Source: Promethearchaeota archaeon
GTDB taxonomy: Archaea; Asgardarchaeota; Lokiarchaeia; Sigynarchaeales; SOKP01
Reading direction: 5' to 3'
Assembly (NCBI GenBank): GCA_014730295.1
Contig: WJIN01000013.1
Coordinates: 1-19,194 of the forward strand
Length of the DNA: 19,194 nucleotides
Below the pieces are notes generated by a model. The model did no database searches, was not told the DNA's origin, and saw only the letters and a list, made by a program, of their open reading frames with translations. How positions within the stretch are numbered: position 1 is the stretch's first letter; each line of letters starts with the position of its first letter. Positions 912-19,194 of this stretch are shown in pieces. The translations under genes were made by a program, and so were the position numbers.

Positions 912-933
912 AGTTAAAAAAGATTTTTTAACT
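912..933. promoter_or_regulatory. Perfect 10-bp inverted repeat before the aminotransferase gene
   Basis: AGTTAAAAAA (912-921) and TTTTTTAACT (924-933) are perfect reverse complements separated by GA. The repeat lies 54-75 bases before the start at 987. A TATA-like CATATACTAT follows at about 940-949, which would place transcription start near 970 and this palindrome just upstream of the box. That spacing fits an operator for a dimeric regulator. AT-only palindromes arise easily in AT-rich DNA, so this is a candidate only. Confidence 0.4.
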
Positions 934-986
934 AAAGCATCATATACTATTTCTAACAGAAAACATAAACAGAGATATGATGAAAT

Positions 987-2012: not shown

Positions 2013-2015
2013 CTA

Positions 2016-2027
2016 ATTTATTTTTTT
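2016..2027 (+). terminator. T-run terminator after aminotransferase
   Basis: Beginning four bases after the stop codon is ATTTA followed by seven T (2021-2027). There is no hairpin. This is typical of archaeal intrinsic termination. Confidence 0.5.
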
Positions 2028-2100
2028 ATGTTTTATTCGGTTTATTACCTTAAGGAGATGTGAGAAATTTTTTCTTCAATTTAGAGTATTCTCTGTTCAA

Positions 2101-2259
2101 TTAAGGTGATTTAGAGTCAAGTTCATCCAGCTTGTCTTGTAACTTCCTTCCCATCAGTTTAAACAGTTGTAAGAACTGAATCACATCAGATATGGATGTA
2201 TCTGGATCTTTAGTTTCTTCTTGATCTTGAATCCGCACAAATTTTTTATTTTTATCCAT
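2101..2259 (-). CDS. Small protein, 52 aa, acidic/amphipathic, unknown function
   Basis: An ATG at 2259 opens a 52-residue frame ending in TAA at 2101-2103. The product begins MDKNKKFVRIQDQEETKDPD, continues into a predicted amphipathic helix (about 23-48, with I/V/L/F in heptad-like positions) and ends KSP. The amino-acid mix (K, E, D, Q, L, I) and lack of odd residues look like a real protein, and the frame fills an otherwise empty gap. It is divergent from the phosphodiesterase gene at 2313, leaving 53 bases for both promoters; minus-strand TTTATATT lies close before its ATG. I do not recognise the family. The short helix suggests a small dimerising or adaptor protein, but this is inference. 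Confidence 0.55.
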   Translation of the reverse strand: MDKNKKFVRIQDQEETKDPDTSISDVIQFLQLFKLMGRKLQDKLDELDSKSP

Positions 2260-2312
2260 TATACTAATATAAATATGAATTCTCCAAAATAAGTTGGATT
2301 TGTATTTAATAA

Positions 2313-2831
2313 ATGCCTGATTTAAAAATAGTTATTATCGGTGATACGCATCTCCATTCGATGGATAATTTTCCCGAAAAGATGATGAAAGAGATCATAA
2401 ATTCCGATTGGTTGATTCATACTGGAGATTTTATTTCGGAAAGTGTCCTTGAAACGTTTATAGGCATAAAACAGGATAAATTTATCGGGGTATATGGAAA
2501 CGCGGACCCATTAAGCATAAGAAAGAAATTAACTCAAAAGAAAAAGTTTTCGATTTACGAAATCAGGTTTGGTTTAGTACATCCAGCTGAGGGTGGACCT
2601 GATCAGAAAGCAGAAAAGCGCGCACGTAGGAGTTTTGATAAGAGCGAGATAGATATTCTAATTTTCGGTCACACTCATTCAGCTAAGATAGAAAGGAGAG
2701 GAAGGCTCTTGATATTGAATCCTGGAAAAGGATACCTCGAAAAATCATATTATGGCCCCTCCACATCATATATTTTGTTGTTTATATCTAAAGAGAGGGA
2801 GATAAATCCTAAAATAAATTATATCGAATAA
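2313..2831 (+). CDS. YfcE/MJ0936-family metallophosphoesterase
   Basis: A 172-residue single-domain calcineurin-like phosphodiesterase, a dinuclear-metal enzyme acting on small phosphodiesters in vitro; the natural substrate of this family is not settled. The metal-binding motifs are all present: D11-T-H13, HTGD (D39), YGNAD (N63), H90 and GHTH (H120, H122), then LNPGKG (135-140). Length is normal for the family. Two spots differ from the usual pattern: GNAD in place of GNCD, and LVHPAEGG where most relatives have a His-Gly-His type motif. The histidine H90 itself is kept, so activity is likely retained. It is convergent with the zinc-ribbon gene ending at 2881. Confidence 0.88.
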   Translation: MPDLKIVIIGDTHLHSMDNFPEKMMKEIINSDWLIHTGDFISESVLETFIGIKQDKFIGVYGNADPLSIRKKLTQKKKFSIYEIRFGLVHPAEGGPDQKAEKRARRSFDKSEIDILIFGHTHSAKIERRGRLLILNPGKGYLEKSYYGPSTSYILLFISKEREINPKINYIE

Positions 2832-2880
2832 GTATAGAGAAAAGAAAGAGGTAACACCACCCATAGCATAGGCCCGCGTC

Positions 2881-3198
2881 TCATACTTCTTCAATCTTGA
2901 TTGAGGGCCATTTAATTCTTTCCTCCTTACATTCAGGACATTTAGAGGGAATTTTTAAAGTTAATCCTTTTTGATTAAATTGATAGCCGCATGCCTTACA
3001 TGAAGCGGGACGGACTAAGATTTGGAGTCCTTCATGTTTGAAAGTTTTAGCAATATGTTTAATATCATTGATCAAGCGTTTTTTCCCCGGATATTCCAGT
3101 TCCCTCAAGATTGCTTTCAGATCATTAATTTCTCTCATATTTTCCAAAATTTCCATAAGTTTCTCCCGCCGTGTCTTCCATTTTTTATCTCGACCCAA
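2881..3198 (-). CDS. HTH/zinc-ribbon predicted transcriptional regulator (COG3357-like)
   Basis: A 105-residue protein. Residues 1-62 are helical and basic (RREKLMEILENMREINDLKA), as in a winged-helix-like DNA-binding region. Residues 67-90 hold two CxxC pairs (C67/C70 and C87/C90) that make a zinc ribbon. This order matches small archaeal proteins annotated as HTH fused to a zinc ribbon; their targets are unknown. Translation starts at TTG 3198, only 2 bases past the thioesterase stop (3201-3203), so the two genes are translationally close and surely share a transcript. A nearby ATG is out of frame. A role in controlling the thioesterase or lipid/acyl metabolism is possible but unproven. Confidence 0.75.
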   Translation of the reverse strand: MGRDKKWKTRREKLMEILENMREINDLKAILRELEYPGKKRLINDIKHIAKTFKHEGLQILVRPASCKACGYQFNQKGLTLKIPSKCPECKEERIKWPSIKIEEV

Positions 3199-3200
3199 AC

Positions 3201-3635
3201 CTAATCCAAATCTCCTTCTAAATCTATAATACTTTGTTTAATCTTTTTGGGCAATTCTGATGTACTATTCAATTTATAATTATAACACACTACGTTAGCT
3301 TCTCCTATTGCCGCGAGATCGCCCAACTGCTCGCTTTTTAGCGCATATTTCATCAAAAATCGATCATTTTTCATTTCGGTTACCTTGGCCCCAACGAAAA
3401 TAGTATCGGGAAATGTTATAGGTTTTAGATATTTACAGTTTGTGGATGCCAGAATCGGTCCAACGCCCGTTTTGTCCATATAATCTAAAAAGCCAATTTT
3501 TTGAAAATATGCTATTCTCGCACTCTCAAAGAACCGAAAGTACATTACATTATTTAGATGTTGAAATGCATCCATTTGTCCCCAGAGTATAGGGATTTCA
3601 ATGATAACTGGGAATTCTTTATCCAAAGCATCCAT
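3201..3635 (-). CDS. Hot-dog fold acyl-CoA thioesterase (4HBT/YbgC/FadM-like)
   Basis: A 144-residue single hot-dog domain. The signature is WGQMDAFQHLNNVMYFRFFE (18-37), where D22 corresponds to the catalytic aspartate of 4-hydroxybenzoyl-CoA thioesterase-type enzymes and H-x-N-N follows. ILASTNCKYLKPI (61-73) is the conserved second strand. The expected reaction is hydrolysis of an acyl-CoA; the acyl group cannot be read from sequence. The start ATG 3635 has AAAGGA about 6-11 bases upstream, a fair Shine-Dalgarno, and a TATA candidate further up. It is the first gene of a two-gene operon with the zinc-ribbon regulator. Confidence 0.87.
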   Translation of the reverse strand: MDALDKEFPVIIEIPILWGQMDAFQHLNNVMYFRFFESARIAYFQKIGFLDYMDKTGVGPILASTNCKYLKPITFPDTIFVGAKVTEMKNDRFLMKYALKSEQLGDLAAIGEANVVCYNYKLNSTSELPKKIKQSIIDLEGDLD

Positions 3636-3679
3636 GATATATCCTTTGTAGAATTATGTTAGAAGAAAATTCGTTGTGT

Positions 3680-3690
3680 AATTTATAATC
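3680..3690 (-). promoter_or_regulatory. TATA-box candidate for the thioesterase operon
   Basis: On the minus strand this reads ATTATAAAT, 45-55 bases before the ATG at 3635. Initiation about 25 bases downstream of the box would leave a leader of about 20 bases, which fits the Shine-Dalgarno seen there. Confidence 0.45.
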
Positions 3691-3795
3691 ATCGTTTATA
3701 GAATTTTGCTTTTATTATTCAGTTCTGATGATTTATTTTTTCAGCGAGATTATTAATATTTTGATATTAAATTAAAAAACGATGAGCGCCTAGTA

Positions 3796-3804
3796 TTATA
3801 AATA
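3796..3804 (+). promoter_or_regulatory. TATA-box candidate for the YwgA/HD/EFR1 operon
   Basis: TTATAAATA lies about 50-60 bases before the TTG start at 3855, so transcription would begin near 3828 with a leader of about 25 bases. It is the best TATA match in the divergent gap 3636-3854 for the plus strand. Confidence 0.45.
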
Positions 3805-3854
3805 AGGAATAAACTTCTATAGAGCAAAAAAACCAAATAAAGTTAGTATTACCA

Positions 3855-4349
3855 TTGAGTATACAAAAAATTGTCAAATTTAAGAAAATCTGCGATATTT
3901 TAGAGATAGAAACGAAGGGTTCAGATGATTTTGAGAGAAGATTGATAATTCAGAAAATGTTTTATTTCCTTCAAAAACTTGGTCTTGATTTGGATATCAA
4001 ATATAACTTCTATAAATATGGTCCCTATTCTCCAGATTTAACGGATATGTATTATTCAGTTTTAAATTTAAATCGGCAAAAATTAGAATATTTTCCCAAT
4101 ATTGATTTTTCCCAGAAGGAAAACGAAATTCTCATTAAGTTAAAGAAAATCTTTCAACTATGGGGAGGGAATATTAAGGAATTAGAATTTTACGCCAGTG
4201 TATTGTATATCTATGAAGATATGTATATAAAAGACCAAAATAAGCAAAAATTAATTCAAGTTGTGAGAAAGTTTAAACCGGATCTTTTTAGAGCTTTTGA
4301 TATCGAGAAAGCGCTAAAAGATTTAAAAACGCAAGGGCTATTAGAATAG
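3855..4349 (+). CDS. YwgA-like protein (Panacea/SocA-related fold)
   Basis: A 164-residue protein. The segment RLIIQKMFYFLQKLG (29-43) followed by FYKYGPYSPDLTDMYY (52-67) is the hallmark of YwgA-type proteins: a (K/R)LxxQKMxYxxxK helix, then a YGPYSxxL turn. The fold is related to SocA/Panacea domains, which include antitoxins and proteolysis adaptors. In Bacillus, ywgA is adjacent to ywfO, an HD phosphohydrolase gene, and the same pairing occurs here. The start is TTG 3855 with no clear Shine-Dalgarno. The next gene begins 21 bases after its stop, so they are co-transcribed. It may be a regulator or antitoxin-like partner of the HD enzyme; the direct function is unknown. Confidence 0.75.
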   Translation: MSIQKIVKFKKICDILEIETKGSDDFERRLIIQKMFYFLQKLGLDLDIKYNFYKYGPYSPDLTDMYYSVLNLNRQKLEYFPNIDFSQKENEILIKLKKIFQLWGGNIKELEFYASVLYIYEDMYIKDQNKQKLIQVVRKFKPDLFRAFDIEKALKDLKTQGLLE

Positions 4350-4370
4350 ATTTACTTTTTTTAAAAGAAG

Positions 4371-5771
4371 ATGGTACGTAAAATAAATGATCCATTATTT
4401 GGATTGATAGAATTAAACAATGTAGAGTCTTACATCTTAGACACCCCAATATTTCAGAGACTACGCAGAATAAAGCAATTGGCATTAGCTAATTATGTAT
4501 ATCCGACAGCTACGCACGATAGATTCACGCATTCATTAGGTGTGTTTCACTTAACAAAAGAGATTGCATTCGAATTAAATAAAAAGAGTGGGGGGCTTCT
4601 TGACGAATTTAGCGTGGAGAATTTGAAAATGGCCGCCCTATTACATGATATAGGACATTTTCCATTTTCACATGCTCTTGAATTCCATAGTAAACAAGAT
4701 GATTTCCCTTTAGACAGTTTTCCTTCATTTTTAACCTTTCCGCATGAAGAATTTGGAAAGTATTTAATACAGAATTCCTATATTAAAGATATTCTCATAG
4801 ATCATAGCTATGATCTTAATTTGATTTGTAATCTAATCGAAGGAAAAGATATTGAAAATTTGATTCTCAACAGAATTATAAATTGGGAATTAGATTCAGA
4901 TAGATTGGATTACATATTACGAGATTCATTTTTCACGGGAGTAGGATTTGGAAACATAAATTATCACTACCTCCTCAGTAGTTTTAAGCCTTATCAAAAT
5001 AAAAGAATTGTTTTAGATAGCAAAGCCATAAGAGATATTGAACAATTTATAATTTCTCGTTTTTCCTTGCACGATAGAGTATATACTCATAAGACCAGTT
5101 CATACTTTACGTATATGTTAATGGTTGCTGGGCATAATTTAATAAGTAAATCAGAATTTCCTTCATTCCAAAACCAAAAAGAATTAGATGAGATAATTTC
5201 TACGGAACAAGATTCTATGAAGTTTGTGGAATTTTCAGATTTTTATATACTTAGCAAATTCTTTCAGGAATATATCGGGCTCAGAAATTCAATGCTAGAT
5301 GGAGAAGCAAAATATCTAAAGAAAATACTGGAAGCGGTGCTATTTCGAAAGAAGTTTTTCAAAATCAAAAAATATTCCATTTTTACCTCAAAATCAGAAT
5401 CAGAAACGGATATTTTAAAATTTCGAATAAACTCGCGCCTAGAAAAACTAAAAAAAACCTTTCCTAATGAGCTTTTCATTCATACTCCAAAGAATGCTTT
5501 TACAAAATATATGGCAACCAAAATCCCTCCATCTGGTCTGTCTAAAGATGTTGAGATGAAATTTAAGGAAGAGGAAGAACAGACTATTTGGATACAAGAA
5601 AAAAATAATCCCCCTGAAATTTTTTACAGAAGTAATGAGACCTTTTTACAAAAAATTCATGGGTTCGGGATTACAAAAGTTATGATCTATCTTAATAAAC
5701 AAAATTCTTTACTTATTGATGAATATGAATCAATTGAACCAGAAATAAAGAATATTATATATTCAGAATAG
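4371..5771 (+). CDS. SAMHD1-like HD-domain dNTP triphosphohydrolase (YwfO/COG1078-like)
   Basis: A 466-residue HD-superfamily enzyme expected to cleave dNTPs to deoxynucleoside plus triphosphate. The active-site set can be read and aligned to human SAMHD1. H54 in DRFTHSLG, H92-D93 in LLHDIGHFPFSH and D177 in DSDRLDYILRD give the four metal ligands; H96 and H101 correspond to the substrate-contacting histidines, and R178, Y181 and D185 to K312, Y315 and D319. The N-terminal DPLFGLIEL and FQRLRRIKQL are also family hallmarks. Residues about 190-466 are helical and charged, with no second domain I recognise. ATG 4371 lies 21 bases after the YwgA-like gene; the next gene follows by 22 bases. Many relatives are controlled by nucleotides at an allosteric site; that cannot be judged here. 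Confidence 0.88.
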   Translation: MVRKINDPLFGLIELNNVESYILDTPIFQRLRRIKQLALANYVYPTATHDRFTHSLGVFHLTKEIAFELNKKSGGLLDEFSVENLKMAALLHDIGHFPFSHALEFHSKQDDFPLDSFPSFLTFPHEEFGKYLIQNSYIKDILIDHSYDLNLICNLIEGKDIENLILNRIINWELDSDRLDYILRDSFFTGVGFGNINYHYLLSSFKPYQNKRIVLDSKAIRDIEQFIISRFSLHDRVYTHKTSSYFTYMLMVAGHNLISKSEFPSFQNQKELDEIISTEQDSMKFVEFSDFYILSKFFQEYIGLRNSMLDGEAKYLKKILEAVLFRKKFFKIKKYSIFTSKSESETDILKFRINSRLEKLKKTFPNELFIHTPKNAFTKYMATKIPPSGLSKDVEMKFKEEEEQTIWIQEKNNPPEIFYRSNETFLQKIHGFGITKVMIYLNKQNSLLIDEYESIEPEIKNIIYSE

Positions 5772-5793
5772 CTTACAAAAAACCTTATATTTT

Positions 5794-6624
5794 ATGATAA
5801 GAAGTGTGATTTTTTATTTTTCTCAAGTTGTAACGGGAAATACTAAATTAATTGCGGAAAAAGTAGCAGAAGGCTTAAGTAAGGGAAATAATAGGTGTGA
5901 TTTGATTAGATTAAGGAAGTATTCAAAAGATATCGATTTGATAGAAAAGGTTAATTTTGATAAATATGAGTTAATAGGAATTGGTGTACCAGTATATTAT
6001 TTTCATCCTCCTTATCATATTTTGTTTGAACTTCAGCATTTTCCGAGATTAAAAAATAAACCAGGATTTTTATTTTGTACAAGTGGAGGAAATCCGGGGA
6101 GTACCCTCTATCAAATGAAAGAGGTTTTAAATAAAAAGGGAATGAAAATTATAGATGGAAACGACAAGTGGATTGGATGGGATATGCATCAAATGTATGC
6201 AAATCAATCAAATTCAAATGGCCATTACGGATGGTTAAAATCCTCTTTTGGACATCCCAATGAGAATGAAATGAAGGTAGCGGTAATATTTGGGCAATCG
6301 CTATTAAAAAGAGTTTTAGCTCGAAATTTTGAAGAGAAGACAGATTTCTGGAAGAAAGATAATGAAACCGCGAAGATGTGGTCATGGAAAGGTATTCAAG
6401 AATGGTTTCCCGAGTTTACACTAAACGAGGAAAAGTGTGACAAGTGCGGTCTATGCGCCCAGATTTGCCCTTGGGAAGCTATTATCTTAGATCCTTACCC
6501 TAAATGGATAAGAGATTGCGATAGATGTTATATTTGCGATTTGAAATGCCCAAGAAACGCAATTGAATGCGATTTCACTTCACAGATCGAATATCTTGAA
6601 AATCTTATGGAAAAATCAAAATGA
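5794..6624 (+). CDS. EFR1-family flavodoxin/ferredoxin fusion protein
   Basis: A 276-residue redox protein. The N-terminal flavodoxin-like domain (about 1-190) opens with FYFSQVVTGNTKLIAEKV, whose S/T-x-x-T-G-N-T loop binds FMN phosphate; GIGVPVYYF and CTSGGNPG are further FMN loops. The C-terminal bacterial-type ferredoxin has C215-x2-C218-x2-C221-x3-C225 and C242-x2-C245-x2-C248-x3-C252, enough for two [4Fe-4S] clusters. Such EFR1 proteins presumably shuttle low-potential electrons in anaerobes; partners are unknown. It is the third gene of the operon that starts at 3855. A link between a dNTPase and a redox protein is unusual and may reflect convenience rather than shared work. Confidence 0.88.
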   Translation: MIRSVIFYFSQVVTGNTKLIAEKVAEGLSKGNNRCDLIRLRKYSKDIDLIEKVNFDKYELIGIGVPVYYFHPPYHILFELQHFPRLKNKPGFLFCTSGGNPGSTLYQMKEVLNKKGMKIIDGNDKWIGWDMHQMYANQSNSNGHYGWLKSSFGHPNENEMKVAVIFGQSLLKRVLARNFEEKTDFWKKDNETAKMWSWKGIQEWFPEFTLNEEKCDKCGLCAQICPWEAIILDPYPKWIRDCDRCYICDLKCPRNAIECDFTSQIEYLENLMEKSK

Positions 6625-6651
6625 ATAGCTGAAATCAGACAAAGATTTAAT

Positions 6652-6678
6652 TTAAAAAAATGAAAAAAATTTATTTTT
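6652..6678. terminator. Bidirectional T-rich end between convergent genes
   Basis: An A7 run at 6654-6660 and an A7 run at 6663-6669 give T-runs on the minus strand, and TTTATTTTT at 6669-6677 is a T-rich end for the plus strand. They lie between the EFR1 gene and the convergent 7-TM gene ending at 6671, so both transcripts can stop here. The plus-strand T-run overlaps the last codons of the 7-TM gene. Confidence 0.4.
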
Positions 6679-7804
6679 CTGTTGTTTCATAATCCACGAT
6701 GAAAAAGGGAAAAATAGATTTTAGTAAATCTATAGCACTTTCATAAACTTTAAGATTATCTTCCTTCTTCTTCAACTCATTGGCAAAGGTCTGTTCAAAA
6801 GTGATTACATATCGTTTTAATCCTTGATCCAAGAAATATGATACGTTATCCGTTATAATTACCGCTAGAATATTTTCACCAGGTTCTAAGAGAATATTAA
6901 TTCCTCTACTATTAATGTTCCGAACGCTAGCTTCCTTTTTGAAGACCTCTTTAAAAACGCTATTAATTGCGGAGATCATACCAGATAATAGTATATCTTG
7001 AATCTCTACTTGTTTCCTTGTTTTCAAATGGACTGAATGGATGGGACTTCCATCCTTTCTCAGCACCATCAAAAGGTAATTATCATTAGGTAATCGGTAA
7101 ATATAATCTATATTTGTTAGATAAGTAATAACAAATAAAATGACTCCGATAGAAGGAAAAATATTCGCTATTTCCGAAATCTCAGTTAAAATATCTGGTG
7201 CGGTAGCGGGACTTCCGAAGACTCCCAAAATAAAATAAATATCATTCAGCATTGATATTATAAATCCTAATCCCACTAATACTAAAGCTGCGCTTAAAAT
7301 GATTGGTCTAATCTCTTTTGTGTAGAGATATGTTTTAATGAAAATGGGAACCCCCAAACCTAAATATACGAATAAAGCAGGAGTCCAATATCCAATATCA
7401 GCAAGTACCCAAGCGATATCTGTATTAAATCCATTTATCCCGTTATAAAATACTAACCAGAGACCTATTGTTTGCGTCAATAACAATATTATCATAATTG
7501 AGAGACGGATTGAGTTAATCTTTTTCGAAATTAATCTTTCAAAGAAAATATAAAAGAAAAAGAAATGAAAACCATAGAGATTGAGATGAAGCGAGCGAGA
7601 AAATAACTCTAAATAAGCCTCTCCCGAAAATACTACTTCTCCAAAAATTGCAGCTAACCCAGCGAAAAGCCCAAATATTAAACTAAATAAAAAGGACCAT
7701 GCATATCTTTTTCGAATAAGTGCCTGGATAAGAAATAAAATGACTAGTATTCCAAAAGCTATGGTTATTAAAAGAACTGTCCATTCTGCAATTGAGAATG
7801 CCAA
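6671..7804 (-). CDS. Seven-TM membrane protein with C-terminal cytoplasmic sensor-like domain
   Basis: A 377-residue protein. Seven hydrophobic segments are visible at about 7-29, 35-57, 71-92, 100-121, 131-157, 168-190 and 205-229. The remaining 150 residues are soluble. They begin LPNDNYLLMVLRKDGSP, contain ILLSGMISAINSVFKEVF (271-288) and end in a helix with FEQTF (336-340). The alternation of short strands with an SGMxxAI helix and a late FExxF helix resembles roadblock/longin-type small-GTPase partner domains seen in Asgard and other archaea. That assignment is by eye and uncertain. The start is TTG 7804, with GGGG about 9-12 bases upstream. A plausible job is membrane signalling to a cytoplasmic partner. 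It is transcribed alone and convergent with the EFR1 operon. Confidence 0.65.
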   Translation of the reverse strand: MAFSIAEWTVLLITIAFGILVILFLIQALIRKRYAWSFLFSLIFGLFAGLAAIFGEVVFSGEAYLELFSRSLHLNLYGFHFFFFYIFFERLISKKINSIRLSIMIILLLTQTIGLWLVFYNGINGFNTDIAWVLADIGYWTPALFVYLGLGVPIFIKTYLYTKEIRPIILSAALVLVGLGFIISMLNDIYFILGVFGSPATAPDILTEISEIANIFPSIGVILFVITYLTNIDYIYRLPNDNYLLMVLRKDGSPIHSVHLKTRKQVEIQDILLSGMISAINSVFKEVFKKEASVRNINSRGINILLEPGENILAVIITDNVSYFLDQGLKRYVITFEQTFANELKKKEDNLKVYESAIDLLKSIFPFFIVDYETTEK

Positions 7805-7825
7805 AGTGATACCCCAATTGTTGAT

Positions 7826-7840
7826 TAAATATATATTTTA
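7826..7840 (-). promoter_or_regulatory. TATA-box candidate for the 7-TM gene
   Basis: A minus-strand AT-only stretch TAAAATATATATTTA sits 22-36 bases upstream of TTG 7804. The spacing fits a very short leader. The rest of 7805-8013 shows no other gene. Confidence 0.35.
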
Positions 7841-8013
7841 AATTATATCGATATTATATTAAATTTGATATAGGGGAACAGTTATATAACCTTTTGTGTT
7901 TTAGTCTTATAATATGAATACTTTAGAGGTTTTTCTATTAGGTTTTATATAAACATGAAAAATAGTTTGTGAAAATTGTCGTTTATTAACATTATTTTGG
8001 ATTTTTATTTGCT

Positions 8014-8636
8014 ATGATTGCCCCCATTAAATATTTTGTTTTTGGGTTTATTTCGATGTGATTTTTTCCGGAATAGACGTTCTATGATGTCTTCAGCCCA
8101 AGATTTTATATATAGGGGAATTATTTCAGCGATCTTGGACCCATTATCGCACTTTCCGGGGTATCAAATCTTATCTTATTTTTCATGTTCACCCAAGCTG
8201 CGCTCATGGTTAATGTCTTATCTAATCCTTTTATTTTTCTATTACCTAAATTTTTTGAGGACGATGATTATCAACACAATATTGCATTATCAGGATCTTT
8301 TTAGGAATTTTTGCTGCTGGATTTCTCTTTTTAACAATTTTTTACTCTATGGGATATTTTAGGAAAAATCCATATGCTTTTTGCGATATTGTTTAATCTC
8401 TCTGATTTAATTTTTGCATTCTTCTACTTTATTGCTGTTGTGAAAAATAAGGGATTTCCGAAGATTTATGGTTTTATATATATTTATATTTTTTTATTCA
8501 TGGCTGCTGTGGTTTATATAATTCTTACCTTTAGTACCTCTTTCTTACCAATATCTGATAAAGTAATAATCCAAGCAAGTTATTAAACATTGTCGCAATA
8601 TTCCTTCCTTTTATGCTACTTCTTACAATCATATAG
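8014..8636 (+). pseudogene. Decayed DUF998-like multi-TM membrane protein
   Basis: Frame-1 reading from ATG 8014 gives a membrane protein broken by TGA (8059), TAG (8074) and TAG (8113). It then continues SDLGPIIALSGVSNLILFFM and further, ending at a T-run (8298-8302) where the frame must shift. GIFAAGFLFLTIFYSMGYFR continues in the next frame to about 8380. MLFAILFNLSDLIFAFFYFI and two more hydrophobic segments return to frame 1 up to TAA 8584. NIVAIFLPFMLLLTII, a last TM segment, lies in the shifted frame to 8636. The segment SPRFYI(stop)GNYFSDLG resembles the early SP-x-(Y/F)-SI...-SDLG motif of DUF998 7-TM proteins. Three stops of two kinds and at least three frame changes rule out stop-codon reassignment. 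The relic is recent enough to read. Confidence 0.75.
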
Positions 8637-8771
8637 AGAGTATGAATTAAGTTTGGAGAAGTATGGATAGATATGATTAAGTGAACTAATAATAATGGTA
8701 GATTTTGATGGGTGGAAATTTAAAGAGCATTTAACAAAAAATTAGCTCTCTCTCTACCTTTTCATACAAGG

Positions 8772-8779
8772 TTATAAAG
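8772..8779 (+). promoter_or_regulatory. TATA-box candidate for the gelsolin-like gene
   Basis: TTATAAAG ends 40 bases before ATG 8820, so transcription would start near 8800-8805, leaving a short leader. This argues against TTG 8808 as the start. The stretch 8637-8771 shows nothing else except a CT-repeat (ctctctctct, around 8746-8756). Confidence 0.45.
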
Positions 8780-8819
8780 AGATAAATATCAAAATTTAAA
8801 TTAATAGTTGATTATTACA

Positions 8820-9875
8820 ATGCAAATGGTAAGTTCTTATTCTAATTTCATGGTTTTTCAGCTTAAAAATAATGGCGAAAGAATTCGGGTTGCTATTGAT
8901 GAGGAGGAATTCAGGAAGAAGAACGGTGAAGCTCTGTTAAAACCAAATGAAGTAATTATTATCGTAAAAGAAGAAATTCGAAGGATATATATATGGAAAG
9001 GCACAAATTCACCAGTCCGGAAAAAGTTTATCGCATCTCGTGTCGCTGCAAGCTTACAGACGGAGTTAGTGCAAGAAGCACAGTTCCATCGATGTAAAAT
9101 CGTATCGATCGATGAGGGAGATGAACTGACAGAATTTTTACACAATTTTGGTTTCGATAAGAGGGAACAAAGTAAACAAAAAACACCAAAACCATCCACC
9201 AATCAACAATATTTTTCATATGATTCAGAAACACCCCCAAATCAGCGTAGAATAGGCACGAAGCGGGTTAGTCCCCCCTCTAACGAATTGTACACACACG
9301 ATTCTCGAAAAACACATAAACCCTCTAATAAACGCCCCTTGCATAAGAACAATAAGGAAATTCTAAAAAAAGTATTAAATAGCCAACAGCCACCTCGATA
9401 TAAAAGACGGCATATATTGATTGGGAATTCTGAATTATATGGTTCAGTAGAAAAAAAGGCTACAATATTTGGAAAAGAATCGGTAGAAATCGACTGGGAA
9501 CCAATAAAAACCCTTTCAAAGGAAAGATTGGAATTAGATGGGTTTAAATTACGGATTTATATAGATAAAGAATCAAACCGCGTGGAAGCGATCGAGATTT
9601 TTGAGCGTATTGAGGAGGGTGTTCCCAAAGAATCGATGGATGAGCAAACGTCGCTCCAGAAATCCTCTATAGAAGAGGAGAATCAGAAAGTTATTAAACT
9701 AACAGAATTATATCGCCTAGGGCCAAAAACAGAAAAGAAATTCAATGCGATCGGAATTGAATCTGCCAATGAATTACTCGGAAAAGATCCAGATGCGCTG
9801 GCAAAACAAATAGATGGTGCTTCAGTAACCACTATTTCTAATTGGATTAAAGAGGTAAAAGAGCAATTAGATTAA
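8820..9875 (+). CDS. Gelsolin-like domain protein with disordered basic linker and helix-hairpin-helix tail
   Basis: I choose ATG 8820 (351 aa); ATG 8826 and TTG 8808 are alternatives. Residues about 1-112 resemble one gelsolin repeat: VIIIVKEEIRRIYIWKGTNS (46-65) matches the xVYxWxGxxS strand, then a long helix (RKKFIASRVAASLQTELVQE), then IVSIDEGDELTEFLHNFG like the V-x-Q/E-G-x-E-x-x-x-F end of the repeat. A low-complexity basic linker rich in K, R, P, S, T, N and Q follows (about 115-195). A small beta domain comes next (about 196-268), with LYGSVEKKATIFGKESVEID. The C-terminus, ELYRLGPKTEKKFNAIGIES onward, is a helix-hairpin-helix like the N-terminal domain of Rad51/DUF4332. Gelsolin domains bind actin in eukaryotes and Asgards; HhH domains bind DNA or proteins. 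Actin control is an inference. Confidence 0.65.
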   Translation: MQMVSSYSNFMVFQLKNNGERIRVAIDEEEFRKKNGEALLKPNEVIIIVKEEIRRIYIWKGTNSPVRKKFIASRVAASLQTELVQEAQFHRCKIVSIDEGDELTEFLHNFGFDKREQSKQKTPKPSTNQQYFSYDSETPPNQRRIGTKRVSPPSNELYTHDSRKTHKPSNKRPLHKNNKEILKKVLNSQQPPRYKRRHILIGNSELYGSVEKKATIFGKESVEIDWEPIKTLSKERLELDGFKLRIYIDKESNRVEAIEIFERIEEGVPKESMDEQTSLQKSSIEEENQKVIKLTELYRLGPKTEKKFNAIGIESANELLGKDPDALAKQIDGASVTTISNWIKEVKEQLD

Positions 9876-9880
9876 ATTAA

Positions 9881-9899
9881 GAGGATTATCCTCATTTTT
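9881..9899. terminator. Short hairpin plus T-run between convergent genes
   Basis: GAGGAT (9881-9886) and ATCCTC (9888-9893) are inverted around one T, followed by ATTTTT. It sits six bases after the gelsolin-like gene and 21 before the end of the convergent reductase gene. The tight loop makes a true RNA hairpin weak, but the T-run suits archaeal termination on the plus strand. Confidence 0.4.
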
Positions 9900-9919
9900 G
9901 CATAAGTTCGTAAAGTTCT

Positions 9920-11125
9920 CTAATTAATTGCTGCGAAATTTTTAATTTTTGCAAAAAATTCTTTTGAGGGTGCGGCATTAAATAGAAACATATTTACGAC
10001 CGTCTCCCTGAATAACTCATCTTGGTTCGCTAATTTCAGCATATTGGAAAGATTTTCGCCGCCTTTCTCATAAAAGAACTCGACCATTGAGCGTTTCAGT
10101 TTAAAATTCTGTATGATTTTGTTTATAGTCTGGTCTCGCCTATAACCCTTGAGAATGGATTTAGATATATGTTCCTCCTCTAACGCCTTAACCGCGGTTT
10201 CAGCTGCTACTTTCCCAGATACGATGCTCGGATGGATGCCTTCTCCGCTGATAGGAGATACAAACCCTGCGGTGTCGCCAATTAGCATAATATTTTCTCC
10301 GTATAAACTATTTTTTTTAACGCCTCTCGCCGGAAGGGGGTATGCTGCGGACCATACAGTCTTATAATCTTGGCCTGAAAGAATGTTTTTAATATGCGGA
10401 TCTCGGATAAATTTTTCATAAATATGGTTAAGATTGAACTTTAAATTCGCATCTTCGAAGGTTCCGCAACCAATATTGAATTTCTTATCGCTCATTGGAA
10501 AAATCCAGCCATATCCCTTATATGGTCGGAAAAACACATTGATACATTGTTTATCTAAAGATGTCTCTCCTTCCATTATGGCGCATTTTGCAACCCCTAA
10601 TTCATGAATATCCCATTTCTCTCGTAAACCGGATTTGACTGCTAATTTCGAACTCATTCCATCTGCAATGATAATAATTGTTCCAAAAAATTCTCCTGAG
10701 CCAGATTCTTTTTTTGTCTTGATTCCTATATTTTTTCCTTGTTTAGTTATAAAGTCATAGGAAAGATGGTTATCGAACAAATGCGCTCCCGCGTCCACGG
10801 CTACATTCCGTATAGTACTGTCTAATTCTAAGCGATCCATTACAATAGAATCATCTCTCATACTCTCCCAAGAAAACTTTAATTTATCGAACTCAGCAGA
10901 ATACATTCCAATGCTCTTGATTCTATGGGGATTGAGTTTTCTAAGTTGAGGAAAATATTTAAAAATACGAGAGCTTACCCCACCCCCACACGGCTTCCTC
11001 CAAGCAGTATTCTTTTCAATCAGCGCTACATTATAACCCGCTTTTGCTAAGATTTCCGCACATTTTGAACCCGACGGTCCCGCTCCCGAAATGACTACAT
11101 CGAATTTATGAGAATTGTGACTCAT
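9920..11125 (-). CDS. Geranylgeranyl reductase family FAD-dependent oxidoreductase
   Basis: A 401-residue flavoprotein that saturates double bonds in the geranylgeranyl chains of archaeal membrane lipids or their precursors. The N-terminal dinucleotide fold has GAGPSGS (14-20) and a terminal acidic residue in ALIEKN. KPCGGGV (44-50) is the conserved cysteine-glycine patch of the family. PYKGYGWIFP (201-210) is the PxxYxWxFP motif that lines the lipid pocket. GDTAGFVSPISGEGIHPSI (283-301) is the second FAD motif. Length is normal. The start ATG 11125 has a TATA candidate 30-40 bases upstream, so the transcript is nearly leaderless. Exact substrate (digeranylgeranylglycerophospholipid or free prenyl) cannot be told from sequence. 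Confidence 0.92.
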   Translation of the reverse strand: MSHNSHKFDVVISGAGPSGSKCAEILAKAGYNVALIEKNTAWRKPCGGGVSSRIFKYFPQLRKLNPHRIKSIGMYSAEFDKLKFSWESMRDDSIVMDRLELDSTIRNVAVDAGAHLFDNHLSYDFITKQGKNIGIKTKKESGSGEFFGTIIIIADGMSSKLAVKSGLREKWDIHELGVAKCAIMEGETSLDKQCINVFFRPYKGYGWIFPMSDKKFNIGCGTFEDANLKFNLNHIYEKFIRDPHIKNILSGQDYKTVWSAAYPLPARGVKKNSLYGENIMLIGDTAGFVSPISGEGIHPSIVSGKVAAETAVKALEEEHISKSILKGYRRDQTINKIIQNFKLKRSMVEFFYEKGGENLSNMLKLANQDELFRETVVNMFLFNAAPSKEFFAKIKNFAAIN

Positions 11126-11154
11126 TTTAGATTATATTTATGTTAGATACTTAG

Positions 11155-11164
11155 GTATATAATG
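11155..11164 (-). promoter_or_regulatory. TATA-box candidate for the geranylgeranyl reductase gene
   Basis: Minus-strand ACATTATATACC spans this site, 30-40 bases before ATG 11125. Transcription would start only a few bases before the ATG, giving an almost leaderless mRNA. Confidence 0.4.
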
Positions 11165-11248
11165 TTTTAGATTAACGAAGACCTTATTGTGTCTCCTCCA
11201 TTTGCTAATGTGTATTATAGTAGGATAAGATTTCTATAATTCAGATAC

Positions 11249-11440
11249 TCAGAACAGATGCTTGAAAAATGCTTTTATCTTGCTAAAAACACGGGCGGAA
11301 TTCTCTTCTTCTAATTTTTTCAAGGCATAGGTACAATAATGATTTTCGTGAAGGCGATGGTCATCGCAATAATATCTTCCACAGTATTCACATTGAAAGG
11401 GAATATGATCAATCTGCTTGCCGCAATATTCGCACTTCAT
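11249..11440 (-). CDS. AN1-type zinc finger protein, small
   Basis: A 63-residue protein. Residues 3-36 hold C3-x2-C6, C17-x2-C20, C25, H28, H34 and C36, the complete AN1 finger pattern with two zinc sites and the sequence CDDHRLHENHYC. Residues 40-63 form an amphipathic, basic C-terminal helix ending FSKIKAFFKHLF, which could lie on a membrane. AN1 fingers in eukaryotes act in ubiquitin-linked stress responses; archaeal versions occur alone or fused to membrane proteins, with unknown roles. ATG 11440 is preceded by a TATA candidate around 11472-11482. It is a single gene between the reductase and DUF4238 genes on the same strand, separated from both by more than 100 bases. Confidence 0.85.
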   Translation of the reverse strand: MKCEYCGKQIDHIPFQCEYCGRYYCDDHRLHENHYCTYALKKLEEENSARVFSKIKAFFKHLF

Positions 11441-11471
11441 CTTATTATGTCTAAATTATTATCTTCTAAAA

Positions 11472-11482
11472 TAATTATAGGT
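11472..11482 (-). promoter_or_regulatory. TATA-box candidate for the AN1 gene
   Basis: Minus-strand CTATAATTAT spans this site 32-42 bases before ATG 11440, giving a very short leader. The rest of 11483-11629 shows no gene. Confidence 0.35.
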
Positions 11483-11629
11483 TATGAATTACAACTCCAA
11501 AAGTGAATTGTTATTGTAAAAATGGTATAAAAAAATGAGAATAAAAGTCATTGGAACACACCCCTTTCTATTTGTCTTCTTTTCAATCCCTTATCCTTTA
11601 TAATTGTTTTCAAGATTTAAAAAAAAATT

Positions 11630-13220: not shown

Positions 13221-16200
13221 GTGACCCTTACCTTAGACGAGATCATTACCAATTACATTCAGTCCTTCGAGACTGATATTGAAGACATGGTAAATGATTT
13301 AGTCATAGAATTTAGTTATCTTACCAACGACGGATACTATGAATATCAATCCGATCCCGTCGTATTATCCTTAAATTATTCTGAAATCCAACTCGATATT
13401 GAAGAGGGAATCTATTCCATTCAGTATAACAAAGATCTTCAAAAAATCTATGATATGGTAGGTGCGGATAATATGGATATTCGCATCACCATCTCGCAAC
13501 GGGGAAACGCTTCACGCTTTATTCCTTACATTTTGTTGGAACAATTTGACTATCTTTCCGATTCCCATATTATTGAGAATTTTGACAGGATGCCCAAGGA
13601 TGTGAACGGTAATATGGACATCTCCTCGCTCACACATACTCCCCATTACTTCCAGCTCTTATCACAAAATCTGCTGGATGAGCCATTTGAATTATTGGAA
13701 GATTCACAGATCACGATCGGATTGAAAAATCTCCCCAACACCACTTTAGTCAGTTTAGAAAACGACCAATTTACCTACTTAGGAGACGCCCACACACATC
13801 AACTAACTCCAAGCAACGGCTATTCCATTCCGAACTTGGGCATGTTTATTGATACCTATGAAATTGAGGAGCCATTATATCAAAACGGCTTTGTAGACCT
13901 CTATTACGGCAGCGGTACCGAGATCGACGGCGAAAAATATTATGAGATAGAAATCCCGATGGAAGCTCGGTTCAGTGGTATTGACAATTACGAATCCGAC
14001 ATCTTTAATTCCGTACCTACCTCCTGGGAAGATCAATTTACCTTTACTACCGACTTTCTCACGACCGATCATATAACCGTGTCGGGAGAGGTCCTATACC
14101 ATGAAATATTTGACTTAACGGCGGGAATGGACGAGTATATTCCGTCGGCAGAAATCGAAGCAATCTTTGACGAATATGAATATATTTACTTCGGAATTGA
14201 ATTAGCCGAAACAGATATATCTCGTATAAAGAGTATCCATAAGCCAAAAACATATACGCTTAGCGTTCATGGGTTCCCCGCGGGTAATCACCAAGATCTC
14301 TATATTAACGAGTTTTCAGATGGAGGGGTTAATCCTTACGTGCATAATGCGCCTTTAGCGAAAGAGAAATATGCTCTTGAATTCGATGAGAACGGCACCG
14401 CATACGTACTCTTCTTTATCCCGATGGGTGGAGGCGAATTCGGAAACCATTTAGACTTTAACAAACTGATGGTAGATTATTATGTGAACGCCGAGTTTGA
14501 ATACGGAAACGATTATATTATCGATGAAAACCCGATGAATCCCTATGAGTCGCAGATTATTTGGGATTATGGATTTCTTAACCGCACCCATTATAATCTA
14601 CACCCCGATTTCTCACGAGATCATAGTTTTACCGTCGGGTATAGCGCCTTAGAATGGGACATCTTCGACGACCGCTATATTAAAGATTGTGATGATATAT
14701 TTACCTTCCGACCGCACGAGTTCTATAATATCTCGGTCTTATATACGGGTGAGATTACCTCGGAGAACTTCTCGGTGCAGTATATCGTGCCCGAAGGACA
14801 ATATAAAGAAGACCATATTATTTTCCCGAAGATCTATGTACTTGCGCAGAGCGACGCAGACGAGGATACATATATGCTCGATGAAGTACCGAATTGGGAG
14901 AAACACGCCTATATTGAACAAGTCGCACCCAATTCCTACAATTATACCATCAATTTCGACGAAATCGAAGCGAACCTCCTCAACGGCTTCCATATCGCAG
15001 AAGACTCCTATATTTATATACTCGCCCGCTATAATTCCACCCAACTACGCTACAAGATGAGCAGGACGCCGTTCAATTATGAGTACGTCAATTCAAGCTA
15101 CGGCGATTATCATATAAAATTATTGGTTGATGATCAGTTAGTATCTGTCTCAAGCGATATTACAGATTTTAGTAACTATGTAGATACTATTAAAAGCGGA
15201 TATATCTATTTTGCGAATCGATCTATGGGAGAGGACGGGTACATCGCCCCTCAGAGTAAAATAGAGCTTCAATATAAGTTTAAACTCCAACCAGGCGTGC
15301 TCGAGAGGAAAAATGTGATGATTATTACCAAGCCGTGGACAAACCTTTTTGAGACCGAGATGAACTCCTCAATTACCTACCGCGAGCAATATCGCAAACT
15401 TTCGGGAGGCTCGATCATTGCCCCATTTGAATTTTCGCTTTCAATTGAGGATAAACACAGCCTTTATCTCAGTTATCGCCTCACAAAACGCGATTACTAT
15501 GAGGATGTTCACGTGATTTCTCAAGACGCATGGAACGGTTATGGATATGAATATAGTATTATGAACAGTCAACTCGACCAATATATTGATGTCGCCGCAG
15601 ACCCCGATGATGTGGGTATCAGTGTATATTACTTCAATAGCATGGGAGAGATGGAATTTTTGGATTCGAGCCATTATAATATTGATCTTGACCCCTACCC
15701 ATCGGTTATAATCAAAAACGATGGAAATGTGTTAGTAGAGAATAATGCGATCGACCGATTTTTCATAGGTTTTATCCCCGAGAACGAGAATGTCGAGTTT
15801 GCCAAATATACCTTCTCCTATAACCCGATGTATGGTATTAACGAAACGCTTACTATGCCAACTTGGGAATTAATTGGAAATGAAGGGAAGAAAACGGTTA
15901 TCCCCAATTTGGATGCGTTCTATTACATTGACGAGGAGCAATCCACAATCGAAAATACGCTGTGTTATACTTCCGAAGTATCCGCCTATTTAGAAGCGGG
16001 AGAGAGCATCGAATTCAATTTGGCAGAGGAATTAAATACGGATACTTACCAAGAGCTTTTAGCCAGTATTCACAACGGAGAGTATTCATCCTTGTATATC
16101 AAAACCGCGGTTTCACCTATACAATCCTTAGATCTCCTAATTATCACCTTAAAAAATAGTTTTGGAACCCCTATTGACACCCAAACGGTTTCACGGGAGG

Positions 16201-19194
16201 AATTTGAGATGTGGGATTATGAGATCCAAATTGATATACCCACGACACCAAACGATCTAACGTATCTTGAGATCGAACCGATCTTTAGAACGGATGGGAT
16301 CTATGATCCGAATAACCAGAAAGGAGTCCCCCAGATGCAATATACCACGTGGACCGAGGACTCTGCCTATTATACGAAAAACGGAAGCAAATATATGAGC
16401 GTCGAGTTAGAGCACGACCTTATCGAAGAGCCCGAAAGCTTGGAAGTTGCCTATATCTTTAATGAAAACGCAGAACATCTGACCTTCCCCGAAAACGCCT
16501 CAATTACATGGAAATACGAATATCAGCGCTACTTCCTTCAGATCCCCGCAACCTATTGTGACCCCGAAAATCCCGCTCAATTGATCTCATTTGGCGAAGA
16601 CGATATCATACTCATCCGCTACAATTCCCCCGTAAGAAAGGCGCTTCCCATCAGTATCGGGAAAATGTATTTCGAGAAAGAGGGTGATATAAGCCTTCCG
16701 CGAGCGGAGTGTATGCTCATCAACGCGAACGGCACCACCTCACAATATTATGGGGAATTTGAACATGATTATTATTATTCTATTCCCTTGCGAACGACTC
16801 CGTTTGACACCGAAGATTCGGGAAGTTATAAGGCGATCGAGGTTAACCTCACTCTTTCCGATTTAGAAGCATTTGCTGACGAGAACGGCTATATTGAGTT
16901 CAGTAATCTCATGTTTAGCGTCCCAGACCCTACCTATGAGCTTACGATTAACGAGATCGTAGTACTGAAGAATTCCTACGAGTCAACCTCCGAATACGGT
17001 TCCACGGATAGCAGGGTGTGGCAATATTCCGAGACCGAAATGTTTGAGATCGATGAAGATCCCAGCGATGATGAATATAGTTTAGCATTTGAGGAGACAC
17101 CGATATTTTATGAAGAGCCGAATAATTTCTGGATAGAATGTCTCACTATCTACGATCCGGAGGGTAATTATTATTCCGCAGGGATTTACGGCGATCAGTA
17201 TCAATTGCATTATAATAGTACCAATAACACGTTCACGTGGAATCCTTCATTTAACCAATATCCCGATTATTTCGGTATGGGATTTGAAGAACCGCTGATG
17301 GTCGCGCCCAATGAAACGCTTTATTTCGAGTATTGCACCAACGCATCCTGGGCAGAGCCGATCCGCATCGACCAACCCAATATCGACCTCAACTCGATCC
17401 GTGCGGTCTATGATTATAACTACTTACTCAAGCCGGAGCATTATGATTGGTATTCGGAGATGTTCGGTTATACTAATGATTACGAGAATATCGCCTATTC
17501 GTTCAAAGAAGAAGATGAATATAGCATCACCCAATTTTATACCGAATCGTTTGAAATTTACGAAGATATAAGTGTTTATGAGCATCACTTTGATCTCGGA
17601 GACCTCTGCTTAAGCGAGGACTTTGTCAATCTGACCTTAGACCGCGTGATAGGGCGTACCCCTACCTTTGAGGTAGAAACATTAAACAATAACGAGAATT
17701 ATACACTCACATTCTGCCCTGAGATGAATTCACTTACCATCGAGGATCTCGAGCCTTTGGACGGTTCCTTACAAATATTTGACCAAATTAGTATTTATTT
17801 GAATTATTCCTATGCCCCGGTCTCAACATATAGTGAATTGACTTTACTGCCCGCTTTTAATTCGACCTTCCTTACCGACCCCGAGGAAACGTTCTATAAC
17901 CACCTTAACATAGACTACTCATATTTATCAGAATCGGGAGAGGTGTTGTTTGCCGAAAGTTCGGACATGATAGGCGGCGACCATACGTCGTTCGAGTCGA
18001 TTTCCTATAGTCCAAACCCCTCGCTTAGCACAAATCACGTGTTAGACCATTACGGTACCGAACTATATGATAATTTCAATACCTATTATGATGAAAGTGT
18101 GATCATCTATGCGGCGGATTTAGAGTCTGACGGTGAGGTAGATTACAAAGAAGTACGAGATCTCAATCGGGACGGCATATATGATATTATTAAGTACGGA
18201 ATTGATGATCCCGATTATGAGGGGCAGATCATTTGGCACACCATTATTCAACATTTTGAAGACCAGCAAACCACCCTAGATCGTAATCTTGCGGAAAAGA
18301 CGGAAACGCAATGGTTTGATATCGACGATACCGCCTTTGCACACTGCGATAAAGACATTTGGCAACTGCTCTTCCGCCTTGAGAATATATTCCTTTTCCC
18401 AATCTTGAAAAATCTCGGAAAATTAGTGATTCCCGATTTGGATTATTGGGCAAAGAAAACCTCTCAAACCGAAACCACCACCGAGACCACGCAATCAAGC
18501 CTCTATTACAGCGTCAAGACCGATGTAAACCGCGACGGCTATGCGGACACCCAGATGGACTATGAGAAGATTGAATATAGTACCGACTATACCCAAGTGG
18601 AATCACGAGAAACCATCTTTGCGGCAAAATACAGAGACATCTATACGATGATCGGGGAGTATCTTGCCCGCTCCGTCGGGTCACTCGTGGTTGGACATAT
18701 TTACGACTTGGTCTTTACCGACAAATTGACCGAAGCGCACCTAAAATCGGGAGACTTTGGTGGTTGCGATTATTTCACGCAAGTTGCAGGACCCGTGCTT
18801 CATAATACCTATCGTAAGTTTACCGAAGAGGTCACCACACAATACACCTCTCAATCAGTAGGACAAGAAAGTATTACCATCACCGACTATGAGAAGGGAG
18901 AGATACTAGAGCAACGCACCTATGCGGACGACTTTAGGACACAAGAGATCGATGAGGTGGAAGGATATCTTTCCAATCTCTTTAGCGAGCATACCATCAC
19001 GAATGTTGAGACCGGAGAGCAGCTCATCATCGAGTTCGACCCCACATTACCGTTTACCGATCCTGCAAACATCAGCTGGTCATCCGAAGTCTGGGGAGCG
19101 GATAATATCCCGATTAAATATGATAAATTGACCAGAGATATTGACGGGGAAATCTCTATCGAAAATAGGTTTTCACAAGAGGTCACCTTAGCGA
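13221..19194 (+). CDS. Giant acidic, beta-rich, putative surface protein, partial (N-terminal part in window)
   Basis: One frame stays open from 13194 to the right edge with no stop: at least 1,991 residues from GTG 13221. I do not recognise the family. The protein is rich in D, E, Y, N, S and T, with few lysines and about ten cysteines, and reads as successive beta-sandwich-like blocks. NxS/T sequons are frequent (NGSKY, NSTNNT, NLTL), as in exported archaeal proteins. Codons 1633-1641, 1647-1655 and 1768-1776 are D-x-[DEN]-x-D-G-x-x-D calcium loops (the first has S before the D-G). A Thr-rich hinge lies at about 1747-1760 after a hydrophobic helix (about 1713-1743). No signal peptide follows GTG, and the Shine-Dalgarno is weak, so an upstream exon-like truncation or loss of the true N-terminus is possible. 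G+C is higher than the operons (one line about 58%). Transport across the membrane is inferred from sequons. Confidence 0.75.
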   Translation, partial: MTLTLDEIITNYIQSFETDIEDMVNDLVIEFSYLTNDGYYEYQSDPVVLSLNYSEIQLDIEEGIYSIQYNKDLQKIYDMVGADNMDIRITISQRGNASRFIPYILLEQFDYLSDSHIIENFDRMPKDVNGNMDISSLTHTPHYFQLLSQNLLDEPFELLEDSQITIGLKNLPNTTLVSLENDQFTYLGDAHTHQLTPSNGYSIPNLGMFIDTYEIEEPLYQNGFVDLYYGSGTEIDGEKYYEIEIPMEARFSGIDNYESDIFNSVPTSWEDQFTFTTDFLTTDHITVSGEVLYHEIFDLTAGMDEYIPSAEIEAIFDEYEYIYFGIELAETDISRIKSIHKPKTYTLSVHGFPAGNHQDLYINEFSDGGVNPYVHNAPLAKEKYALEFDENGTAYVLFFIPMGGGEFGNHLDFNKLMVDYYVNAEFEYGNDYIIDENPMNPYESQIIWDYGFLNRTHYNLHPDFSRDHSFTVGYSALEWDIFDDRYIKDCDDIFTFRPHEFYNISVLYTGEITSENFSVQYIVPEGQYKEDHIIFPKIYVLAQSDADEDTYMLDEVPNWEKHAYIEQVAPNSYNYTINFDEIEANLLNGFHIAEDSYIYILARYNSTQLRYKMSRTPFNYEYVNSSYGDYHIKLLVDDQLVSVSSDITDFSNYVDTIKSGYIYFANRSMGEDGYIAPQSKIELQYKFKLQPGVLERKNVMIITKPWTNLFETEMNSSITYREQYRKLSGGSIIAPFEFSLSIEDKHSLYLSYRLTKRDYYEDVHVISQDAWNGYGYEYSIMNSQLDQYIDVAADPDDVGISVYYFNSMGEMEFLDSSHYNIDLDPYPSVIIKNDGNVLVENNAIDRFFIGFIPENENVEFAKYTFSYNPMYGINETLTMPTWELIGNEGKKTVIPNLDAFYYIDEEQSTIENTLCYTSEVSAYLEAGESIEFNLAEELNTDTYQELLASIHNGEYSSLYIKTAVSPIQSLDLLIITLKNSFGTPIDTQTVSREEFEMWDYEIQIDIPTTPNDLTYLEIEPIFRTDGIYDPNNQKGVPQMQYTTWTEDSAYYTKNGSKYMSVELEHDLIEEPESLEVAYIFNENAEHLTFPENASITWKYEYQRYFLQIPATYCDPENPAQLISFGEDDIILIRYNSPVRKALPISIGKMYFEKEGDISLPRAECMLINANGTTSQYYGEFEHDYYYSIPLRTTPFDTEDSGSYKAIEVNLTLSDLEAFADENGYIEFSNLMFSVPDPTYELTINEIVVLKNSYESTSEYGSTDSRVWQYSETEMFEIDEDPSDDEYSLAFEETPIFYEEPNNFWIECLTIYDPEGNYYSAGIYGDQYQLHYNSTNNTFTWNPSFNQYPDYFGMGFEEPLMVAPNETLYFEYCTNASWAEPIRIDQPNIDLNSIRAVYDYNYLLKPEHYDWYSEMFGYTNDYENIAYSFKEEDEYSITQFYTESFEIYEDISVYEHHFDLGDLCLSEDFVNLTLDRVIGRTPTFEVETLNNNENYTLTFCPEMNSLTIEDLEPLDGSLQIFDQISIYLNYSYAPVSTYSELTLLPAFNSTFLTDPEETFYNHLNIDYSYLSESGEVLFAESSDMIGGDHTSFESISYSPNPSLSTNHVLDHYGTELYDNFNTYYDESVIIYAADLESDGEVDYKEVRDLNRDGIYDIIKYGIDDPDYEGQIIWHTIIQHFEDQQTTLDRNLAEKTETQWFDIDDTAFAHCDKDIWQLLFRLENIFLFPILKNLGKLVIPDLDYWAKKTSQTETTTETTQSSLYYSVKTDVNRDGYADTQMDYEKIEYSTDYTQVESRETIFAAKYRDIYTMIGEYLARSVGSLVVGHIYDLVFTDKLTEAHLKSGDFGGCDYFTQVAGPVLHNTYRKFTEEVTTQYTSQSVGQESITITDYEKGEILEQRTYADDFRTQEIDEVEGYLSNLFSEHTITNVETGEQLIIEFDPTLPFTDPANISWSSEVWGADNIPIKYDKLTRDIDGEISIENRFSQEVTLA

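Follow-up and report, generated by a model that had tools for sequence, protein, structure and literature searches.

Polymorphic toxin systems, as set out in the part of Zhang et al. 2012 available to us (PMC3482391), entail a constant trunk, a variable C-terminal tip, an adjacent partner that follows the tip, and standalone cassettes. LRR proteins are listed there as immunity proteins beside T5SS toxins, HNH-fold nucleases with an HH motif are listed as tips, and a general paucity of these systems in archaea is noted. The orphan modules of the CdiA/CdiI and Rhs systems are a related case. In the accessible portion of PMC4927057 they consist of 5'-truncated trunk homology joined to another tip and another partner, and they are regarded as a possible recombination reserve. 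Giant genes in Asgard archaea are known from mobile elements, the aloposons, whose giants Otus and Ephialtes are described in the available text of Wu et al. 2022 (PMC8813620) as tandem pairs of 3,000-6,000 aa at tRNAs. Aloposons are further marked by a tRNA site immediately downstream of the giants and by four genes upstream, one of which encodes a MinD/ParA ATPase. PMC11573180 records around 23 Asgard proteins that reach at least 5,000 aa, of which 12 are Lokiarchaeotal; its accessible part gives no function or architecture for them. Our literature search found no explanation for the huge Lokiarchaeal proteins (the archaeal polymorphic-toxin survey PMC6509191 lay outside the comparison). The frame analysed here is likely a piece of trunk, truncated on its 5' side, from a family of Lokiarchaeal giants that works in the manner of polymorphic toxins.

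The window is the entire contig, 19,194 bases in length, and its features are collected in Table 1. The frame at 13194-19193 (+) translates into 2,000 residues free of stops, of which 1,991 codons follow from the GTG. In 200 shuffles of the ORF slice the longest stop-free run was 188 codons, and the frame aligned over its full length with six giants from five other genomes at 37-49% identity; together these results exclude chance. A seventh giant matched in two stretches only (22-29% identity). The protein search, in which the best 7,990 candidates were scored, returned seven relatives besides the query itself at 38-49% identity, and the five that are named are entries from marine sediment metagenomes (two) and from one Helarchaeota MAG (three). 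The product is rich in acidic residues and tyrosine (D+E 18%, K+R 5%, Tyr 8.6%) and contains 26 N-x-S/T sequons, compared to 17.3 expected by shuffling, the measure used throughout. The slice matched no Pfam family and no PDB sequence at E up to 1, and a search of viral contigs with the trunk gave no match. It has no signal or anchor of its own. Its two DxDxDG-type loops may, we presume, bind calcium. The ORF begins abruptly at a position internal to the giant family. A frameshift was considered as the cause and rejected, because none of the frames upstream of 13182 showed homology to the family. Judged by these alignments, the window ORF is an internal slice that covers about one eighth of a far longer protein, and not a whole gene.

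Table 1. Features of the window (19,194 bases), with strand and assignment.
Feature	Position	Strand	Remarks
Second slice of the giant family	3..590	-	About residues 13,601-13,780 of G003:C3; runs off the left edge
tRNA-Cys(GCA) gene	692..795	+	30-nt intron; about 100 bp from the left slice
Ordinary chromosomal block	880..11563		Collinear with G156:C1, 89% nt
Block not found in G156:C1	11564..13220		Holds DUF4238 gene 11630-12994 (-)
Internal trunk slice	13221..19194	+	About residues 10,976-12,952 of the 14,832-residue G003:C3 protein; GTG start, contig end open
DxDxDG-type acidic loop, DLNRDG	18159..18176	+	Sequence motif
Second DxDxDG-type loop, DVNRDG	18522..18539	+	Sequence motif

The slice at the left edge also starts abruptly and corresponds to the pre-tip region, with two hydrophobic segments. 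The neighbouring tRNA-Cys gene was overlooked by ARAGORN when run without introns. Genome G156 is the nearest relative of the window that we found. Its contig C91 (3-449) carries a remnant of the giant family with two stops at a contig edge. The chromosomal block includes, at 8808-9875, a gene with a Gelsolin-like N-terminal part and a helix-hairpin-helix end (weak Pfam), matched in 211 of the 227 genomes of the phylum. On the left side, G156 has another gene where the window has the giant piece. On the right side, collinearity with G156:C1 stops about 110 bp from the 3' end of the 23S rRNA, the place of which is occupied in the window by the DUF4238 gene (GC 0.26). Both giant pieces lie outside the breaks of synteny, one by the tRNA-Cys and one at the position that the 23S rRNA 3' end has in the relative. 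Their GC3 is 0.49-0.52 versus 0.17-0.36 for the genes in between, a gap larger than that at other giant loci, and the first 20 kb of G156:C1 contain no giant. These observations suggest that the contig might be a chimera, in which the assembly fused giant pieces to a chromosomal block of 10.7 kb. We regard this as a possibility of substance, though not the favoured one: 5'-truncated copies stand in mid-contig in other genomes (G001:C66, G134:C14, G148:C50), and the tRNA-Cys segment is diverged and, compared with its orthologous surroundings in G156 and G157, inverted, as it would be after a real rearrangement. We lean towards the two outward-facing slices being orphan copies that truly stand at these places. 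They are probably 5'-truncated, and their tips and partners would lie past the contig ends.

The first genome scan found eight loci: seven are Lokiarchaeotal, and the eighth sits in an Anoxychlamydiales bin. The latter (L004, JAAKFN010000045.1), a Lokiarchaeal giant fragment in an Anoxychlamydiales MAG, is probably a binning contaminant. The longest frame around the match in the seven Lokiarchaeota genomes was 11,504 to 14,833 codons in five, and 3,269 and 3,032 codons in the other two. We also surveyed the phylum, scoring at most two candidates per genome, so that the counts are lower bounds: at least 17 of 227 genomes matched, and at least 12 frames of at least 9,000 residues were present in at least 10 genomes. 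Eight giants are complete from start to stop (14,832, 14,548, 14,473, 12,880, 12,736, 11,494, 11,373 and 11,220 residues), and complete frames occur in eight of the ten genomes with frames of that size. The other four of the 12 frames are those of G001:C74, which crosses 16.6 kb of masked sequence, G107, which runs off its contig, G003:C41, which runs off the fetched stretch, and G132:C75, which begins 115 bases from the contig end. These results bear on the earlier note, which had read the window frame as the real coding sequence of a giant gene, acidic, Tyr-rich and sequon-rich, in no named family and of Asgard origin, and had proposed a search for orthologues in other Asgard genomes. The reality of the frame, its composition and its lack of a family hold, the relatives lie in Helarchaeota and Lokiarchaeota records, and the phylum survey supplies the orthologues. 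The giant gene stands in part, as a real uninterrupted frame that gave an incomplete view of a larger protein; the abrupt internal start and the second family piece at 590-3 (-) had been missed.

The giants typically begin with hydrophobic segments at the N-terminus, which are followed by a long acidic trunk, then by a hydrophobic pre-tip and finally by the C-terminal tip. Nine of the 11 giants have 1-15 hydrophobic segments within the first 1,500 residues (eight in G107). The two that have none, G132:C75 and G003:C41, may be incomplete at their sequenced N-termini. A whole Pfam scan of one giant, G003:C3, located three Laminin_G_3 domains and one DUF2341 in the trunk, upstream of the slice equivalent to the window; behind the region equivalent to the window ORF come hydrophobic segments and then the tip. 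The change point to the tip is near an NPNPK motif, where the motif is present.

Behind the conserved trunk the C-terminal domain is variable, and the switch from one tip to another is abrupt. L004 and P0010 are 79.5% identical over 1,770 residues; the identity declines in the last 250, and then similarity is gone. Up to the tip, the trunk of G140:C48 is 62% identical to those of G003:C3 and G001:C74 across 4.5-4.7 thousand residues. Its last 400 residues are instead 34% identical to the tip of G003:C41, although trunk stretches of these two giants are only 23-29% identical, and the genes that adjoin the two tips are 67% identical to each other. A third case is a 5'-truncated copy in mid-contig (G001:C66:22313-28384), which is 88% identical to residues 11,823-13,170 of the G001:C74 giant. 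The similarity stops just past the NPNPK motif, after which there are a different tip and an LRR gene of its own. At the DNA level the two are 87% identical over 4,029 bp, and dN/dS of 0.12 with dS of 0.53 argues that the orphan trunk has been kept or homogenised and is not decaying.

We examined the genes next to the tips. Among the 11 long giants with their 3' end in sequence, an LRR protein adjoins eight (in one case as the second ORF) and a small protein adjoins three. By the same motif count, seven of 171 other ORFs are LRR-like (Fisher P 4e-8). The small partner has paired CxxC motifs, and we call it zinc-ribbon-like, its Pfam support being below the cut-off. Nine further 3' ends were available: five with an LRR gene (L008, G001:C66, G134:C14, G005:C37 and, as the second gene, G148:C50), one with a CxxC gene (G132:C247), and three (L004, L006, G002:C8) with no recognised partner. 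Either partner is thus at most two genes away at 17 of 20 family 3' ends. A tandem duplicate of the CxxC partner, 80% identical, is seen at G001:C77:101576-102305.

The tips were searched alone across the 227 genomes. Type-B tips were at all seven of their places beside one LRR family, 44-72% identical to the LRR protein of G140. Type-A tips gave 34 matches, which make up 32 places, all examined, and the CxxC family stood beside 25 of them. Of the seven exceptions, three are followed by an LRR-like ORF (G108:C69, G157:C43 and G003:C30, short in the last), one has an LRR gene on its 5' side (G157:C7), and at the remaining three neither partner was recognised (G123:C41, where the tip is decayed, G125:C93 and G156:C109). 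The tip type mostly predicts the neighbouring gene. With 18 of the type-A places added, the pairing stands at 25 of 32 instead of 12 of 14, and the sequon count of the tips, described below, at 10 versus about 201 expected instead of 1 versus about 126; both remain clear of the controls. Many type-A and type-B tips are trunkless and stand beside the same partner families, as standalone cassettes. One trunkless type-B tip, compared to all proteins, had two matches, one of them itself. On the contig of the G003:C3 giant, a trunkless type-A tip with a CxxC gene (5847-7381) is located about 12 kb downstream of the giant. In several genomes (L126, L127, L128, L131, L135) a trunkless type-A tip and CxxC gene are found beside genes that look ribosomal by eye; the first four of these tips are 533-548 aa in length and retain some sequons.

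The tips are depleted of sequons. The last 700 residues of the 11 giants hold none, compared to 50.9 expected, and 12 further tips from long fragments or database proteins (G002:C8 left out) hold one versus 59.1, which gives one versus 110 for giants and long fragments pooled. Eight trunkless tips had none versus 15.7. In 22 more tips, mostly trunkless or on short trunks, there were nine versus 75.5, five of them in the L126, L127, L128 and L131 group (16.2 expected). For all 53 tips, which are related and not independent, the count is 10 versus 201.2, and nine of the 10 sit in copies that have no trunk or a short one. In the 11 giants the pre-tip is also low (15 versus 71.8). The trunk of nine giants is at expectation, with 541 versus 541.9; the trunks of G114 and G132 are sequon-poor too, and that of G108 somewhat so. 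The partners show no comparable shortage, with 40 versus 40.5 for the LRR proteins and 9 versus 9.3 and 6 versus 9.2 for the CxxC proteins. Neighbouring ORFs served as controls: 125 without a hydrophobic segment had 261 sequons versus 264.7, and 58 with such a segment had more than expected (225 versus 178.2). In the last 1,600 residues of the 11 giants the reversed motif was normal (115 versus 121.6); D-x-S/T was also low (104 versus 153.7), for which we have no explanation. No such shortage would be expected of a protein that stays clear of the glycosylation machinery, and we therefore infer that the tips of the giants are exported and have to stay bare. Export of the tip, here putative, is implied by the N-terminal hydrophobic segments together with the sequon shortage; no secretion or entry machinery was identified. 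The partners presumably stay inside the cell, and some trunkless copies may have been freed from the sequon constraint.

No tip matched a Pfam toxin family above the cut-off. The start of type-B tips resembles GIY-YIG (Pfam E 0.032, below the cut-off, in two of five members), and the type-B profile found no nuclease in the PDB. In type-A tips an H-H and a further H, read from the alignments, are kept in two alignments of six tips; the HH is absent in G108 and in several weaker type-A matches. We liken this H-H...H pattern to that of the HNH-fold toxins in the available part of PMC3482391. The tips are perhaps nucleases. One giant tip (L006, 16643-19342) contains a ubiquitin-like domain (PF00240, E 9e-8, above the cut-off), and short beta-grasp-like stretches may occur by eye at the start of other tips.

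Set against the described systems, the family has three of the features that define polymorphic toxins: a variable C-terminal domain behind a conserved trunk, an adjoining gene family that mostly follows the tip type, and standalone tip cassettes. It appears to work like such a system, with toxin fold, export route and toxicity putative. It differs from the systems in the available text of PMC3482391 in its trunk of about 9,000 residues or longer, its archaeal host, its tips unmatched in Pfam and the sequon shortage. The whole Pfam scan of G003:C3 found no bacterial trafficking domain, and no FHA-type or two-partner secretion match at E up to 0.1, as would be expected of CdiA (T5SS), which is also accompanied by a CdiB partner. 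The orphan copies have the composition of the CdiA/CdiI and Rhs orphans and may likewise be a recombination reserve; unlike those in the accessible portion of PMC4927057, the G001 orphan sits on a different contig from its long relative. We do not class the family as CdiA or as an aloposon.

The LamG domains, the acidic trunk and the hydrophobic segments at the N-terminus would also be in keeping with a giant adhesin or surface fibre that only binds surfaces or cells. The variable tip would then be an adhesive or recognition domain, and the LRR and CxxC neighbours would have other roles; LRR-like genes do occur away from giants (the seven of 171 above). Such a protein has no need of a sequon-free adhesive tip while its trunk carries sequons at the expected number, and both the trunkless tips beside the same partner families and the orphan copies are left unexplained. 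We consider this reading rather unlikely. The earlier note had likened the product to archaeal surface or adhesion proteins and would have taken beta-sandwich blocks and a C-terminal anchor as support for a surface protein. An adhesive stalk is retained as one part of the picture, the whole pattern being that of a polymorphic toxin; the anchor is not evident in the relatives, in which that end is a variable, sequon-poor tip, usually beside a partner gene.

The window ORF itself could be a dead remnant, a pseudogene, as its abrupt internal start and the lack of a signal or anchor of its own might indicate, and decayed remnants of the family do occur, as in G156:C91. This is unlikely given that 5,973 nt run without a stop and that the last 851 residues keep 77 of 77 family-invariant positions, defined as those on which all the other rows that carry a letter (at least 12 of 15) agree; the 15 relatives, in the same test, missed 0 to 9 of theirs. 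That the giants are mobile elements like the aloposons, in which giant genes lie in tandem and are integrated at tRNAs, is very unlikely: giant Asgard genes, truncated extra copies and a tRNA near the window's left piece are shared with the elements in the available part of PMC8813620 (compared by gene arrangement), but the stretches fetched hold single genes of 11,000-15,000 aa and no tandem giants of 3,000-6,000 aa, and at the 12 other loci, with flanks of varied length, some ending near the gene, no tRNA is directly downstream or otherwise adjacent, the nearest being about 6 and 9.5 kb away.

If the giants do work like polymorphic toxins, the N-terminus would anchor the protein, the trunk would reach outwards and bind via LamG, and the hydrophobic pre-tip might help the tip to cross the target membrane. 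The tip would be the effector, possibly a nuclease, and protection of the producer would fall to the partner. Toxicity, immunity and delivery are here inferred from sequence. With about even confidence, we propose that Lokiarchaea are armed for cell contact with weapons that each consist of one polypeptide, up to about 15,000 residues long, whose distal effector cassette can be exchanged. The cassettes on giants would have been purged of N-x-S/T because archaea N-glycosylate exported proteins, and the immunity partners would not, so that the absence of sequons would mark exported effectors and tell toxin from antidote in raw sequence. The shortage in the tips, compared to the normal partners, offers a simple and testable signature by which to look for exported effectors in other archaea that glycosylate. 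If true, a contact-type effector system in the group closest to eukaryotes would bear on how these cells meet their partners and rivals.
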